From: a virus
DNA: 21,469 bases
IMG/VR virus record: IMGVR_UViG_3300044846_003145
Span: 1 to 21,469 of that record
Reading direction: 5' to 3' (one strand)
Shown here: positions 11,117 to 19,522 of the stretch, in pieces
Layout: every line of letters starts with the position of its first letter
Numbering within the stretch: position 1 is the first letter of the stretch
Made by a program: the position numbers and the translations under genes
Notes under the pieces: generated by a model
Told to the model about the DNA's origin: nothing
What the model saw: only the letters and a program-made list of their open reading frames with translations
The model's database searches: none

Positions 11117-11362
11117 ATGCCAGAAGAAACAACATCTGTCCGTATTACACAAAAGGACATTTACGAAAAACTGCTTGAACTGCAAGCTGTTCAAATTGAA
11201 CTGGTGGCAGACATAAAGAATCTAAAAGACTTGCCTGCACGCATGAACGATGTTGAGCAACGACTAGCCAAATTTGAATGGATTGAAAAACTGGCTTTGA
11301 CCGCCTTGGGTTCAGGAATTGCAGGTTTTTTGGCTGCTTTTTGGGGCTTGCTTACAAAATGA
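11117..11362 (+). CDS. XhlA-like small membrane protein (lysis accessory)
   Basis: An 81-residue protein with an amphipathic coiled-coil N-terminus (DIYEKLLELQAVQIELVADIKNL, then MNDVEQRLAKFEW) and one C-terminal transmembrane helix (ALTALGSGIAGFLAAFWGLL). This is the layout of the XhlA/hemolysin accessory family, which helps holin and endolysin in lysis of Gram-positive hosts. The stop overlaps the peptidase ATG (ATGA), which supports a joint role. It may instead act as a holin or antiholin itself. Confidence 0.65.
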   Translation: MPEETTSVRITQKDIYEKLLELQAVQIELVADIKNLKDLPARMNDVEQRLAKFEWIEKLALTALGSGIAGFLAAFWGLLTK

Positions 11363-12272: not shown

Positions 12273-12533
12273 TTAGCGCTCATTTGGCGAAGTTCCGCCC
12301 CAAATGCCATGTTTTTGCCCAGACTCAACTGCGTAGGTAAAGCAGTCCTTTTGTATTGGGCAGGTTTTACACAACCGCTTGGCATATGCTGTCACAACTG
12401 CTCTTAGTTTGGCTTCTGGGTAATCTTCAGGATAGAAAAAATCTGGGTGTTCTTCACATGGAACTGGGCTGGCAGCTTGTATCTTTCTGATAAACAACCA
12501 ATAGCCCTGTTCAAAATGTCCCTGGTTTGGCAT
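12273..12533 (-). CDS. whiB: WhiB-family iron-sulfur transcription regulator
   Basis: An 86-residue WhiB-like protein with all four iron-sulfur ligands: C26, C55-x2-C58 and C64, followed by the G76-I-W-G-G80 turn that contacts sigma factor region 4. Family members hold a 4Fe-4S cluster and act bound to the primary sigma factor. The protein stops at TSPNER, six residues after GIWGG, so the basic DNA-contacting tail of host WhiB proteins is missing. It may act through sigma binding alone, like other short phage versions. No ribosome site precedes the ATG; TAGAAT lies 6 nt upstream, which suggests a leaderless mRNA. Only minus-strand gene. Confidence 0.92.
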   Translation of the reverse strand: MPNQGHFEQGYWLFIRKIQAASPVPCEEHPDFFYPEDYPEAKLRAVVTAYAKRLCKTCPIQKDCFTYAVESGQKHGIWGGTSPNER

Positions 12534-12547
12534 AGGGTAATTCTATG
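12531..12547. promoter_or_regulatory. Interleaved divergent leaderless promoters
   Basis: CATAGGGTAATTCTATG carries two outward-facing start codons with 11 bp between them. On the plus strand TAGGGT (12533-12538) lies 6 nt before ATG 12545. On the minus strand TAGAAT (12545-12540) lies 6 nt before the whiB ATG (12533-12531). Each -10-like box overlaps the other gene's start codon. TAGAAT is the better match to consensus. Opposing initiation here would be mutually exclusive. An alternative for the plus gene is the weak AGGG at 12534-12537 used as a ribosome site. Confidence 0.5.
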
Positions 12548-13447
12548 AAGGAAAACATTCAAATAAGAACACACACACCCAAACAATTCAACGAGGCGAC
12601 ACTACTGCACACCGCAGAAACAGGTTCAGATGTTTGGTCAAATTGGAGAATGCAAGGTTTGGGGGGTAGTGAAATTGGCACAATTCTGGGGCTGAATGAA
12701 TACAAATCCCCTTACGCACTGTGGGCAGAACGCACAGGAAAAGTAGATGTTGAACCAGTAAACAATTGGTCAGTCAGGTTTGGCAATGCTTTTGAAGCTC
12801 CAATTTTGCAGATGTGGGCTGAGGACAATCCACAGTGGCAGGTTTATAAAACAGGCACATATGTAGACAATCAGTTCCCATTTATGCAAGCCAGTCCAGA
12901 TGCACTAGCCCAAAATAAGGAAACTGGTGAATGGATAATTTTGGAAGTCAAAACAGCTAGGTATTCATGGGATTATCTGCCACCTAGTTATCATGCCCAG
13001 GTAATGCACTACTTAGATGTGATGTCTATAAATCGTGGCATTGTGATAGCCATTGCAGGTTGGAACTGGTACGAACAGGAAATTGTCTATGATGAATGGC
13101 AAGCATTGGCACAGCGTGATTCTGCAAGTCATTTTTGGAATTTAGTTCAAACACAAACTGAGCCTGATTTTGATGGTGCAACGTCTACTTATGAAACTGT
13201 TAGAAAATTGCACCCAGACATTGACCTTGATTTGTCAGTTGAATTGCCAAATGGTGAACAGTTGGTTCTGATGCAAAAAGAACTTGACTGGGCGCAGAAA
13301 CAATTGAACTATGAAAAAACAATGGCTTTGAAAATTATGGACAAGGCAAAGCGTGGCTTTGTTGTTCGTGATGGTAAAGAAGTGACTGTTGCCACCAGGC
13401 GCAGTCGAGAAAATGGCTTGCCATTTTTAGTGATAAATAGCAAATAA
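12545..13447 (+). CDS. YqaJ / lambda-Exo-like recombination nuclease
   Basis: A 300-residue PD-(D/E)XK exonuclease that would chew 5' ends of double-stranded DNA to give 3' tails for annealing. It has GGSEIG (residues 40-45), the FGNAFEAPILQMWAE helix with the first acidic residue, the SPDA aspartate D119, the E134-V-K136 catalytic pair, and YHAQVMHYL, the Q-motif helix of the YqaJ family. The C-terminal third is helical. It partners the annealing-type protein that follows. It starts 11 bp from the whiB start on the other strand. Confidence 0.85.
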   Translation: MKENIQIRTHTPKQFNEATLLHTAETGSDVWSNWRMQGLGGSEIGTILGLNEYKSPYALWAERTGKVDVEPVNNWSVRFGNAFEAPILQMWAEDNPQWQVYKTGTYVDNQFPFMQASPDALAQNKETGEWIILEVKTARYSWDYLPPSYHAQVMHYLDVMSINRGIVIAIAGWNWYEQEIVYDEWQALAQRDSASHFWNLVQTQTEPDFDGATSTYETVRKLHPDIDLDLSVELPNGEQLVLMQKELDWAQKQLNYEKTMALKIMDKAKRGFVVRDGKEVTVATRRSRENGLPFLVINSK

Positions 13448-13459
13448 AAAAGGAAAAAA

Positions 13460-13966
13460 ATGAACAGATTCAATTTGGAAGATTACGAAACAGTAGAGGA
13501 AAGGATAAGAAAATTCTATGAAGCAAACCCAGACGGAAGAATCATCACTGACAATAAAACAACTCTTGAAGACAGGTCTGTCTCTACTTGGGTTGTTTTT
13601 GCGAGCATTTTTCTCACCGCAGCTGACCAAGCGAATCATCTACCAAAAGCTACTGGATGGGCATTTGAAATTGATGGCGGTAATGGTGCAAACAAAACTG
13701 CTGCTTTGGAGAATGCAGAAACTTCAGCAATCGGTAGAGCACTTGCAAACGCTGGATTCTCAGGCAACAAACGAACCAGTCGTGAAGAGATAGAAAAGGT
13801 TGAACGTGGTATCACACCGCAACCAGTTCGTGACTGGGAAACAGAGGCAAGCAAACTGTCCACAATCGAAGAGTTACGTGAACTGTGGAACGAGGCAAAA
13901 CGCAACAACGCCCCAGCTGCAACATTGTCAAAAATCAAAAAACAAGCTGATTTGTTAGGAGGATAA
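13460..13966 (+). CDS. Probable single-strand annealing protein (Sak3/ERF-like)
   Basis: A 168-residue protein after the exonuclease, with AAAGGAAAA before ATG 13460. It opens NLEDYETVEERIRKFYEANPDGRI, has a WVVFASIFLTAADQ-type beta strand, and ALENAETSAIGRALANAGF, a motif shared by phage annealing and recombination-associated proteins. SREEIEKV and a helical C-terminal tail follow; the tail (ASKLSTIEELRELWNEAKRNN) may bind partner proteins. Exonuclease plus annealing protein is the lambda Red-type arrangement. Which annealing family it belongs to is not certain. Confidence 0.6.
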   Translation: MNRFNLEDYETVEERIRKFYEANPDGRIITDNKTTLEDRSVSTWVVFASIFLTAADQANHLPKATGWAFEIDGGNGANKTAALENAETSAIGRALANAGFSGNKRTSREEIEKVERGITPQPVRDWETEASKLSTIEELRELWNEAKRNNAPAATLSKIKKQADLLGG

Positions 13967-14298
13967 TGACACTGACACCAACGGAAATCAGTGAGCAAAT
14001 TGTCTCACTGGTTGCTGAAAATCAACGTGGGGTTACAGCCGTATTCGAAGCAGAATCAAAGCTGGCACACTGTGAATACGATTTGGATTTGAAAGAACAA
14101 ACTGCATTCATAAAAGCTGACGGCAACATAGCTGAACGAAATGCAATTGCCAAATTGGAATCTGCAGAACTGCGATTACAAAGAGATTTGGCAAGAGCTG
14201 AATTGAACCGCATAAAGCTGAAACTAAAGGCTGTTGAATCTGCTCTAATGGCAAATGCAACGCAAGCAAAATTGCTAATGGTTGAAGCAAAACTGTGA
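13966..14298 (+). CDS. Unknown helical protein in the recombination operon
   Basis: A 110-residue, almost wholly helical protein starting at the TAATG overlap. Heptad-like alternation runs through EAESKLAHCEYDLDLKEQTAF, the conserved-looking GNIAERNAIAKLESAELRLQRDLARAEL and a long final helix. Proteins with an A-x-GN-x-AERNA block are common in actinophage recombination clusters, but I know of no assigned function. A role as helper of the annealing protein or as a coiled-coil scaffold is inferred. Confidence 0.7.
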   Translation: MTLTPTEISEQIVSLVAENQRGVTAVFEAESKLAHCEYDLDLKEQTAFIKADGNIAERNAIAKLESAELRLQRDLARAELNRIKLKLKAVESALMANATQAKLLMVEAKL

Positions 14299-14636
14299 AA
14301 AAATCACTGCTGAAACTACTGCTTGACAGGGACAAACACTGCTGGCACTGTGGAGATACAGAAACCCTAGTCCCCCATCACCGCAAGAATCGTGGAATGG
14401 GGGGCAGGGGCAACTCTTTGGACACACCAGCAAATCTAATTTTGGTTTGTGCCAAATACAACCTAGAGATGGAAGCCAATAGCAAGGTTATGGTCAGCGC
14501 TTTAGTGCGTGGTCATAAACTGCGACAAACAGATTCATTTTTTGAACCTGTTTTTGATAATGTAACAAACCAATGGTTCATTTTGGACAATGAAGGAAGA
14601 AAAAATGCCACTAATTCGAGGTCACCACAGTTTTGA
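14295..14636 (+). CDS. HNH-type endonuclease, degenerate
   Basis: A 113-residue protein starting at GTG 14295, overlapping the previous stop (GTGA). It shows C-W-H-C near residues 16-19, a V-P-H-H pair at about 26-29, RGMGGRG, and a PANLILVC segment typical of phage HNH enzymes. The second metal pair is incomplete: the usual CxxC is replaced by C-A-K-Y-N. The NLEMEANSKV segment supplies the final acidic helix. It could be an active variant or a structural zinc protein. Its last 32 nt overlap the replication gene. Confidence 0.65.
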   Translation: MKKSLLKLLLDRDKHCWHCGDTETLVPHHRKNRGMGGRGNSLDTPANLILVCAKYNLEMEANSKVMVSALVRGHKLRQTDSFFEPVFDNVTNQWFILDNEGRKNATNSRSPQF

Positions 14637-15333
14637 CCACAGTTTCACCCAAATACCAAATGCATGGGTAAGAGATTCACGACTGACTTTTCGTGCACGT
14701 GGCTTACTGTCAATGCTTTTGTCACATGCACAGGGTTGGTCATTGTCAATCAGTTCCCTGGCTAAAGACAATTTAGAGGGCAGTCATGCCATTCGTGAAG
14801 CAATCCACGAACTAGAAAAACTAGGTTATTTAGAACGCAAACAGCTCAACGAAAATGGAAGGTTTGGCGAGGCAATTTGGGAAACAAAAGACCCTGAGCC
14901 GTTGTCTGATTTTCCGTCGTCGGATTTTCCGAAGCATAAGAATACTATTAGTAAGAATACCAATAAGAATATTAAGAACACCAATCAGGATTTATTTGAT
15001 GAGTTCTGGAAGGAATACCCACAAAAGAAGGACAAAGGCGCTGCATTTAGAGCATTCAAATCAGCACTGAACAGAGCCAAATTTGAAGACATCATTGCTG
15101 GCGTAATCCGCTACAAAAATGACCCAACCAGAGATTCCAAATTCACCAAATACCCTGCCACTTGGCTAAATGCTGACAGTTGGGAAAATGATTACCAGAC
15201 CCCAGACGATTCTGCCCAGCGCAGGCGTGAGCTGGAAAAACAAAGGTCAAGAGAATTCTTAGATGAAATGGCACAAATTGCTGAACAGTCAGTGCCACTA
15301 ACACCAGAGCTGAAAAGGAAACTAGGATTGTGA
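14605..15333 (+). CDS. Replication initiator / helicase loader-like protein
   Basis: A 242-residue protein. ATG 14605 is chosen over ATG 14590 because AAGGAAG lies 4-5 nt before it. Residues about 10-85 form a winged-helix domain (FTQIPNAWVRDSRLTFRARGLLSMLLS, then REAIHELEKLGYLERKQL). An asparagine/lysine-rich linker (about 98-128) follows, then a C-terminal region DEFWKEYPQKKDKGAAFRAFKSAL with a KYPATWLNADSWEND block, as seen in phage replication proteins of the DnaT/O-like type. It would bind the origin or recruit the host helicase. The linker DNA contains four TAAGAATA-like repeats. Confidence 0.75.
   Translation: MPLIRGHHSFDHSFTQIPNAWVRDSRLTFRARGLLSMLLSHAQGWSLSISSLAKDNLEGSHAIREAIHELEKLGYLERKQLNENGRFGEAIWETKDPEPLSDFPSSDFPKHKNTISKNTNKNIKNTNQDLFDEFWKEYPQKKDKGAAFRAFKSALNRAKFEDIIAGVIRYKNDPTRDSKFTKYPATWLNADSWENDYQTPDDSAQRRRELEKQRSREFLDEMAQIAEQSVPLTPELKRKLGL
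14908..14980 (+). repeat. Iteron-like repeats inside the replication gene
   Basis: GATTTTCCG occurs at 14908-14916 and 14923-14931. TAAGAATA follows at 14937-14944, 14952-14959 and 14964-14971, with TAAGAACA at 14973-14980. The area is AT-rich and encodes the linker between the two domains of the replication protein. In lambda the origin iterons lie in the same place within gene O. All spacings are multiples of three, so protein low complexity is an alternative cause. Confidence 0.45.
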
Positions 15334-15885: not shown

Positions 15886-16034
15886 TTGCAAATTTACTAG
15901 CACTTAGTTTTTCAGTGCTGTTCATCATTCTGGCAATGCAGGCAGAGCCAATCACTCAGGTGCTTGGCTTTACTGCAGGGGCAATGCTTGGGCTTGCTAC
16001 ACTTGCCAGATGGAACAAATCAGACTCAAAATAA
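15882..16034 (+). CDS. Micro-membrane protein (50 residues)
   Basis: A small gene starting at TTG 15882, whose last bases form the previous stop (TTGA), and ending at TAA 16032-16034. It encodes two hydrophobic segments (MIANLLALSFSVLFIILAM and VLGFTAGAMLGLATLA) with a short polar loop QAEPITQ and a basic tail RWNKSDSK. This is a hairpin membrane protein. It fills the otherwise empty gap before the resolvase gene and overlaps it by 25 nt. Function unknown. Confidence 0.6.
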   Translation: MIANLLALSFSVLFIILAMQAEPITQVLGFTAGAMLGLATLARWNKSDSK

Positions 16035-19078: not shown

Positions 19079-19263
19079 GCAAAAACGTAAAAGCAGACTT
19101 CATCACAGCTGCCAAATTATTGGAAGATGACAATCTAATCTGGTCAGCAGACTTGGATTCAATCAGACACTCACTAGCAAAATACCTGCGTGAAAAAGCT
19201 GAAAATGGCAATGAAAATAGCTGGCATTTGATAGATGTTGTGGATAGATTTATATCAGACTAA
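19054..19263 (+). CDS. Unknown small protein
   Basis: A 69-residue protein. ATG 19054 keeps the overlap with the peptidase gene to 25 nt; ATG 19003 is in frame but would overlap by 76 nt. Neither has a good ribosome site at the usual distance. The sequence (MAIRQFRLSKNVKADFITAA, LLEDDNLIWSADLDSIRHSLAKYLREKAENG, WHLIDVVDRFISD) is helical and acidic at the end. No known motif. Confidence 0.5.
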   Translation: MAIRQFRLSKNVKADFITAAKLLEDDNLIWSADLDSIRHSLAKYLREKAENGNENSWHLIDVVDRFISD

Positions 19264-19276
19264 AAAGGAAGGTCAA

Positions 19277-19522
19277 ATGCTAGAAGGATTGAAGCCACCA
19301 GTCAGGCAAAATTACATCTGCAAAGTGGCATTTTATTTGGGAACACTAAAACCAAGCGATAGTGAAATTTTGCAACAAGCAATTGACAACAAGGAATTGT
19401 GGCCTGCCAAAACACTAAGCAATGGATTGGCACAGCGAACAATCAAAATTGCAGACACGACAATAACAAAACACCGCAACCAATTGTGTGCATGTTTCCG
19501 AGATGACCCAACACTAGACTAA
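19277..19522 (+). CDS. Helix-turn-helix-like small DNA-binding protein
   Basis: An 81-residue protein with AAGGAAGG just before ATG 19277. The core (LKPSDSEILQQAIDNKELWPAKTLSNGLAQRTIKIADTTITKHRNQLCAC) has the build of a helix-turn-helix: short helix, turn, and a recognition-like helix TTITKHRNQ. Three cysteines (C14 in NYICKVAF and the C-A-C pair in the tail) could bind metal. Similar proteins occur beside nuclease genes in actinophages. It precedes the metallophosphoesterase with a TAATG overlap. Role likely regulatory, inferred. Confidence 0.6.
   Translation: MLEGLKPPVRQNYICKVAFYLGTLKPSDSEILQQAIDNKELWPAKTLSNGLAQRTIKIADTTITKHRNQLCACFRDDPTLD

Follow-up and report, generated by a model that had tools for sequence, protein, structure and literature searches.

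The start region shared by a whiB-like gene and a recombination exonuclease gene in a viral genome is best explained as a leaderless, -10-only whiB promoter that overlaps a PafBC-type promoter of the recombination genes, a reading to which comparative sequence evidence gives a probability of about 0.68. Judged from its conservation, the pair of back-to-back promoters is real and is conserved in viruses of actinobacteria. The DNA-damage code of the exonuclease promoter suggests that the virus takes its cue from the single-stranded DNA (ssDNA) alarm of its host. Throughout, the window denotes the whole stretch of DNA that was analysed, 21,469 nucleotides of IMG/VR record IMGVR_UViG_3300044846_003145.

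Two genes with a common start region

The following features are given in window coordinates.

12273 to 12533, minus strand: whiB, encoding an 86-aa WhiB-like protein (Pfam Whib, PF02467, 3e-15; aligns with WhiB1, 6ono, 1.1e-9)
12517 to 12520, plus strand: putative PafBC-type -26 element TGTC of the exonuclease promoter, inside whiB codons 5-6 (GGA CAT)
12531 to 12547, both strands: shared core CATAGGGTAATTCTATG, holding the whiB start codon (complement), both -10 boxes and the exonuclease start codon
12533 to 12538, plus strand: -10 box TAGGGT of the exonuclease promoter, predicted +1 at 12545, leaderless
12540 to 12545, minus strand (5' to 3' from 12545): -10 box TAGAAT of the whiB promoter, predicted +1 at 12533, leaderless
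12545 to 13447, plus strand: YqaJ/RecE-type recombination exonuclease, 300 aa (YqaJ, PF09588, 1.5e-19; RecE-like phrog_434, 1.9e-53; TIGR03033)
13460 to 15333, plus strand: genes after the exonuclease, with matches to phrog_11717, phrog_1389 and phrog_270 (5e-37)
13460 to 13966 and 13966 to 14298, plus strand: two unknown genes directly after the exonuclease
14295 to 14636, plus strand: gene after the two unknowns
14590 to 15333, plus strand: replication-initiation-like protein gene

The whiB product conserves C26, C55, C58 and C64 together with GIWGG, as in WhiB-like (Wbl) proteins, and the basic tail after GxWGGxxxxER is absent. Its gene is a lone minus-strand gene and runs towards the plus-strand lysis genes. 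In the other direction, close packing indicates that the genes at 13460 to 15333 are probably co-transcribed with the exonuclease, for which a search of GTDB genomes returned no match. Some loci (L059, L099-L105, L107-L111 and L121-L123) contain a second WhiB-like ORF in tandem, about 300-500 bp beyond the first.

The core sequence was read directly. The start of whiB is at 12533 and that of the exonuclease at 12545, leaving 11 bp between the start codons. TAGGGT is followed by 6 nt and then the exonuclease ATG, while on the minus strand TAGAAT is followed by 6 nt and then the whiB ATG, and each -10 box has one base in common with the start codon of the opposite gene. The original prediction had described this geometry, including the 11-bp distance, the exact 6-nt spacing and the overlap of each box with the other start codon, and the direct reading agrees with it in every respect. 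A 6-nt spacing between TANNNT and ATG makes the A of the ATG position +1. Closely packed -10 elements place the predicted divergent start sites at a distance of 12 bp, within the approximately 10-23 bp typical of bidirectional promoters. Both genes have TANNNT 6 nt before their start and no Shine-Dalgarno site, as in leaderless promoters.

Across both strands of the window, TANNNT at the 6-nt spacing precedes 1.4% of 714 ATG trinucleotides, and positions 12531 to 12547 form the sole divergent double TANNNT-N6-ATG. Single boxes at this spacing also occur, without a clear ribosome site, before a RusA-like gene at 16010 (TACACT) and a gene at 11117 (TAGTAT).

Conservation of the divergent promoters

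Loci with whiB and the exonuclease diverging head to head were collected by protein searches of IMG/VR and reduced to 31 lineages with exonuclease identity below 80%. The divergent promoter architecture is common to all 31 of these loci, which differ by more than 20% in exonuclease sequence. In L003 and L004, all 17 bp of the core are identical although the coding DNA on either side has diverged. Conservation in related phages, which had been proposed as a check on the element, is found at two levels: the exact 17 bp in L003/L004, and the architecture in 31 independent lineages.

On the whiB side, 21 of the 31 lineages have an in-frame whiB start preceded by TANNNT at a distance of 6 or 7 nt. 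Counts of TANNNT are low at other spacings, except at spacer 0, where the box arises as a side effect of the opposite one. Four of the remaining lineages carry a 3-nt insertion that brings the whiB box spacing to 9 or 10. In four of the 31 lineages the two -10 boxes are about 30 bp apart and strict interleaving is absent. The cultured temperate phages PFR1 and Mellie have their exonuclease inside a plus-strand operon, with no divergence from whiB.

With the exonuclease +1 set 7 nt after the -10 box, 16 of the 31 exonuclease starts lie no more than 1 nt from the predicted position, all of them lacking a Shine-Dalgarno site. The other 15 genes have a leader, mostly of 13-20 nt, and a scan detected a Shine-Dalgarno-like site in 13 of them; one of the two exceptions (L110) also has such a site when its start is read correctly. 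The window exonuclease belongs to the leaderless class. This split supports the predicted start sites, and with them the earlier proposal of leaderless or near-leaderless starts on both sides. In the exonuclease leaders of L131 and L136, downstream of the promoter, a G+C-rich hairpin precedes a T-rich stretch, a possible attenuator.

A TGTC element at a fixed distance from the exonuclease -10 box

For the 31 lineages, all 4-mers at all distances ahead of TANNNT were counted without bias and compared with shuffles. TGTC exactly 12 nt before the box led by far, occurring in 24 of 31 lineages (shuffles reached at most 5), or in 27 when the first base of the box was left free as NANNNT (shuffles at most 9). 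With a single TGAC variant included, TGTC is found at N12 in 28 lineages, and AGTC in the other three, so that with one-base variants all 31 carry the element. Relative to the exonuclease +1, it occupies positions -28 to -25. In the window, AAAA at 12513-12516 precedes TGTC and the exonuclease promoter reads TGTC-CCTGGTTTGGCA-TAGGGT, with the N12 spacing and direction of a PafBC promoter. TGTC is the most informative part of the promoter element. It was missed by the original prediction, which was confined to 12531-12547 and ended 11-14 bp short of it.

In most lineages, TGTC falls within whiB codons 3-7. All 24 in-frame overlaps use GGA (Gly) or CGA/AGA (Arg), codons expected at 20% and 27%, respectively (P ~8e-16 from codon usage). 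TGTC is also kept in place where it is intergenic, as in the long-spacing group, or out of frame, as in L123 and L131. The forced synonymous codons, together with the intergenic and out-of-frame copies, argue for selection on the DNA and not only on WhiB, and rule out WhiB coding constraint as the cause of TGTC.

Match to the PafBC promoter code

Mycobacterial PafBC promoters respond to DNA damage independently of RecA/LexA. Their motif in Mycobacterium tuberculosis and M. smegmatis reads TGTCGG-N10-TANNNT; its orientation is indispensable, and GG can be replaced by AG or AC (PMC8151990). PafBC sits between promoter DNA and domain 4 of SigA, with PafB on the -26 motif, and is activated by ssDNA (PMC11804915). 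The exonuclease promoters share core, spacing, direction and position with the mycobacterial PafBC promoters. GG follows TGTC in about half of the 31 lineages. The window copy reads TGTCCC, not TGTCGG, and CC is also found in three relatives; by its sequence it is a divergent copy, for which the PafBC match is limited to core and spacing. A preliminary search in Streptomyces venezuelae recovered no PafBC motif (PMC9380542), indicating that not all actinobacteria use the code.

The element in other phages

A blind DNA search of IMG/VR for TGTCGGTGG-N7-TANNNT-N6-ATG matched at least 120 stretches, with scans at the wrong spacings TGTCGGTGG-N8 and N5 as controls (70 and 101 matches, 171 in total). 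Among the matches listed for the correct spacing, 87 of 128 ATGs (68%) opened a frame of at least 60 aa, compared with 17% at each wrong spacing. The listed matches also included at least 19 exonuclease loci, 17 of them with a divergent whiB; there were no exonuclease loci in the 171 control matches.

In some large actinophage records (L402, L409/L421, L410, L413, L423, L439 and L469), TGTCGGTGG-N7-TANNNT recurs 5-16 times, always on the same strand and in most cases ahead of a leaderless ATG or of a short leader with a Shine-Dalgarno site; the reversed pattern is absent from these records. Several of these multi-copy actinophages encode WhiB. No phage record matched the small protein that lies behind a motif in L398, an isolate-derived viral record.

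The same layout occurs in the cultured Pontimonas phage phiPsal1 (MG835450). Its whiB arm is TAGACT-N6-ATG, while the other strand has TGTC-N12-TATAGT and a short leader with AGGAGG, followed by the gene that precedes its exonuclease.

L169, 3959 to 4231 (MG835450, complement of about 19223-19495): unannotated whiB of phiPsal1, opposite the annotated hypothetical gene 031

Freshwater actinobacteria as a host-side test

PafBC has been studied mainly in mycobacteria. WYL proteins were found in seven of eight genomes of freshwater acI actinobacteria (Nanopelagicales) that were checked, each time as an adjacent pair, and the pair of acI LanE-43 matches the PafB/PafC structures 7p5x, 9fnd and 6sj9.

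L188, 1060 to 2920: PafB and PafC of acI LanE-43, between trmI and the tat genes (tatC)

In this order, TGTCGGTGG-N7-TANNNT precedes recA (L516) and also leaderless genes. It further precedes a conserved small gene with a LexA box and a LysM gene, likewise with a LexA box, that resembles Rv2719c, a known PafBC target (PMC8151990). Across acI genomes the extended motif outnumbers its reversed control only about twofold, so that the support lies in the identity of the genes behind it. Its placement before recA and LexA-box genes amounts to a DNA-damage promoter signature in acI, and the window phage likely infects an acI-type host carrying PafBC.

Proposed mechanism

Leftward, RNA polymerase with the housekeeping sigma factor would use the -10-only TAGAAT to produce a leaderless whiB mRNA. 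Rightward, the -26 TGTC and the -10 TAGGGT at PafBC spacing would direct an exonuclease mRNA that begins at its ATG. Host PafBC, activated by ssDNA, would link the -26 element to domain 4 of sigma; ssDNA from phage replication or DNA damage would thereby turn the recombination genes on. Since both -10 boxes and both starts lie within 17 bp, a polymerase engaged at the exonuclease promoter would keep whiB from being transcribed, while whiB transcription would pass through the -26 element. We infer host PafBC binding at this site, the ssDNA trigger, mutual exclusion and a PafBC-bearing actinobacterial host.

Mutually exclusive transcription, as originally predicted, follows from the overlap and fits what is known of bidirectional promoters (PMC12825309). 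Strict interleaving is lost in four of the 31 lineages. At bidirectional promoters of Escherichia coli, the two directions did not compete because basal transcription was too weak (PMC12825309); exclusion should thus become important only where one direction is strongly activated. Wbl proteins bind domain 4 of SigA (PMC10245118), the domain on which PafC docks (PMC11804915). The whiB product could therefore oppose or modulate the neighbouring promoter, which is speculation.

Alternative readings

The strongest competitor, although much less probable than host PafBC, is that an activator encoded by the phage and mimicking PafBC recognises TGTC-N12-TANNNT. The many one-strand copies in some actinophages would be expected of a phage's own regulon, and the nucleotides after TGTC drift in the lineage of the window. 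However, neither the window nor ten phage records, multi-copy or related, contained a WYL protein. The same motif also marks host DNA-damage genes, including recA, and the published PafBC motif is identical in sequence and spacing.

Less probable again is a constitutive bidirectional promoter with symmetric -10 elements, served by the housekeeping polymerase and no dedicated activator. Such promoters are common, -10 symmetry is enough to form them and the 12-bp distance between starts is compatible with them (PMC12825309); a search for a sigma-70 promoter with a -35 element also found none at the site. Yet this would leave unexplained both the forced whiB codons and the invariant distance at which TGTC is kept across 31 lineages.

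It is improbable that the upstream element is a WhiA/WhiB site (GACAC on the other strand) through which phage WhiB and host WhiA activate the exonuclease. TGTC is the complement of GACA, whiB always adjoins and WhiA and WhiB are known to co-control promoters via GACAC (PMC4850268, PMC3781837), but the fifth base, C, follows GACA in only one of 31 lineages, which is why this candidate was rejected, and WhiA motifs have no fixed direction whereas the phage element is fixed in both direction and spacing.

Least probable of all is the switch originally proposed, in which sigma-bound WhiB flips transcription between the lysis and replication halves: leaderless divergent starts do overlap and Wbl proteins do bind sigma domain 4, on which PafC also docks (PMC10245118, PMC11804915), but whiB is monocistronic, faces the lysis genes on the other strand and yields a transcript without a lysis gene, on which ground the switch was rejected, and the overlap is lost in long-spacing lineages.

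Implications

A PafBC-type exonuclease promoter overlapping that of whiB also allows a broader, tentative reading, to which we give somewhat less than even odds. Many actinophages, with copies ranging from the one promoter here to 16 in larger phages, may place recombination and other early genes under host PafBC and so time their programme by their own replication intermediates. Here, this promoter would be coupled with a divergent promoter for WhiB, a protein that would bind the sigma domain used by PafBC, giving a one-or-other feedback unit. In the literature searched, the coverage of which is incomplete, no paper was found on phage use of the PafBC DNA-damage pathway or on a link between PafBC and phage promoters.

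If true, this would provide a sequence-readable rule for early promoters in the largely uncultured freshwater actinophages and account for recombination genes and whiB standing back to back. It would be directly testable in cultured phages such as phiPsal1 and the Planktophila phages E7/F5. Relatives of WYL-domain ssDNA sensors regulate anti-phage defence, and a second role would be suggested for these sensors.

Comparison with known systems

The phage element shares with PafBC-dependent (RecA-NDp) mycobacterial promoters the TGTC at -26, the 12 nt to TANNNT, the fixed direction and the association with DNA repair and recombination genes. It differs in that it overlaps a divergent leaderless whiB promoter and is embedded in whiB codons, and in that the window has TGTCCC in place of TGTCGG; PafBC dependence of the phage promoter is putative. 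Like leaderless mycobacterial TANNNT promoters, both window promoters place TANNNT 6 nt ahead of the ATG and lack a ribosome site, but here two of them face each other with bases in common.

Bidirectional promoters, as described by Warman and colleagues, often have divergent starts 10, 18 or 23 bp apart (PMC12825309). The phage pair has similarly closely packed -10 elements. In contrast to the symmetric type, however, its -10 boxes are adjacent and not shared, both transcripts are predicted to be leaderless and one direction has its own putative activator element.

Finally, phages that read the DNA-damage signal of their host through LexA-regulated, SOS-controlled promoters are known. While those promoters use the repressor LexA, the one proposed here would use an activator, PafBC, that senses ssDNA.
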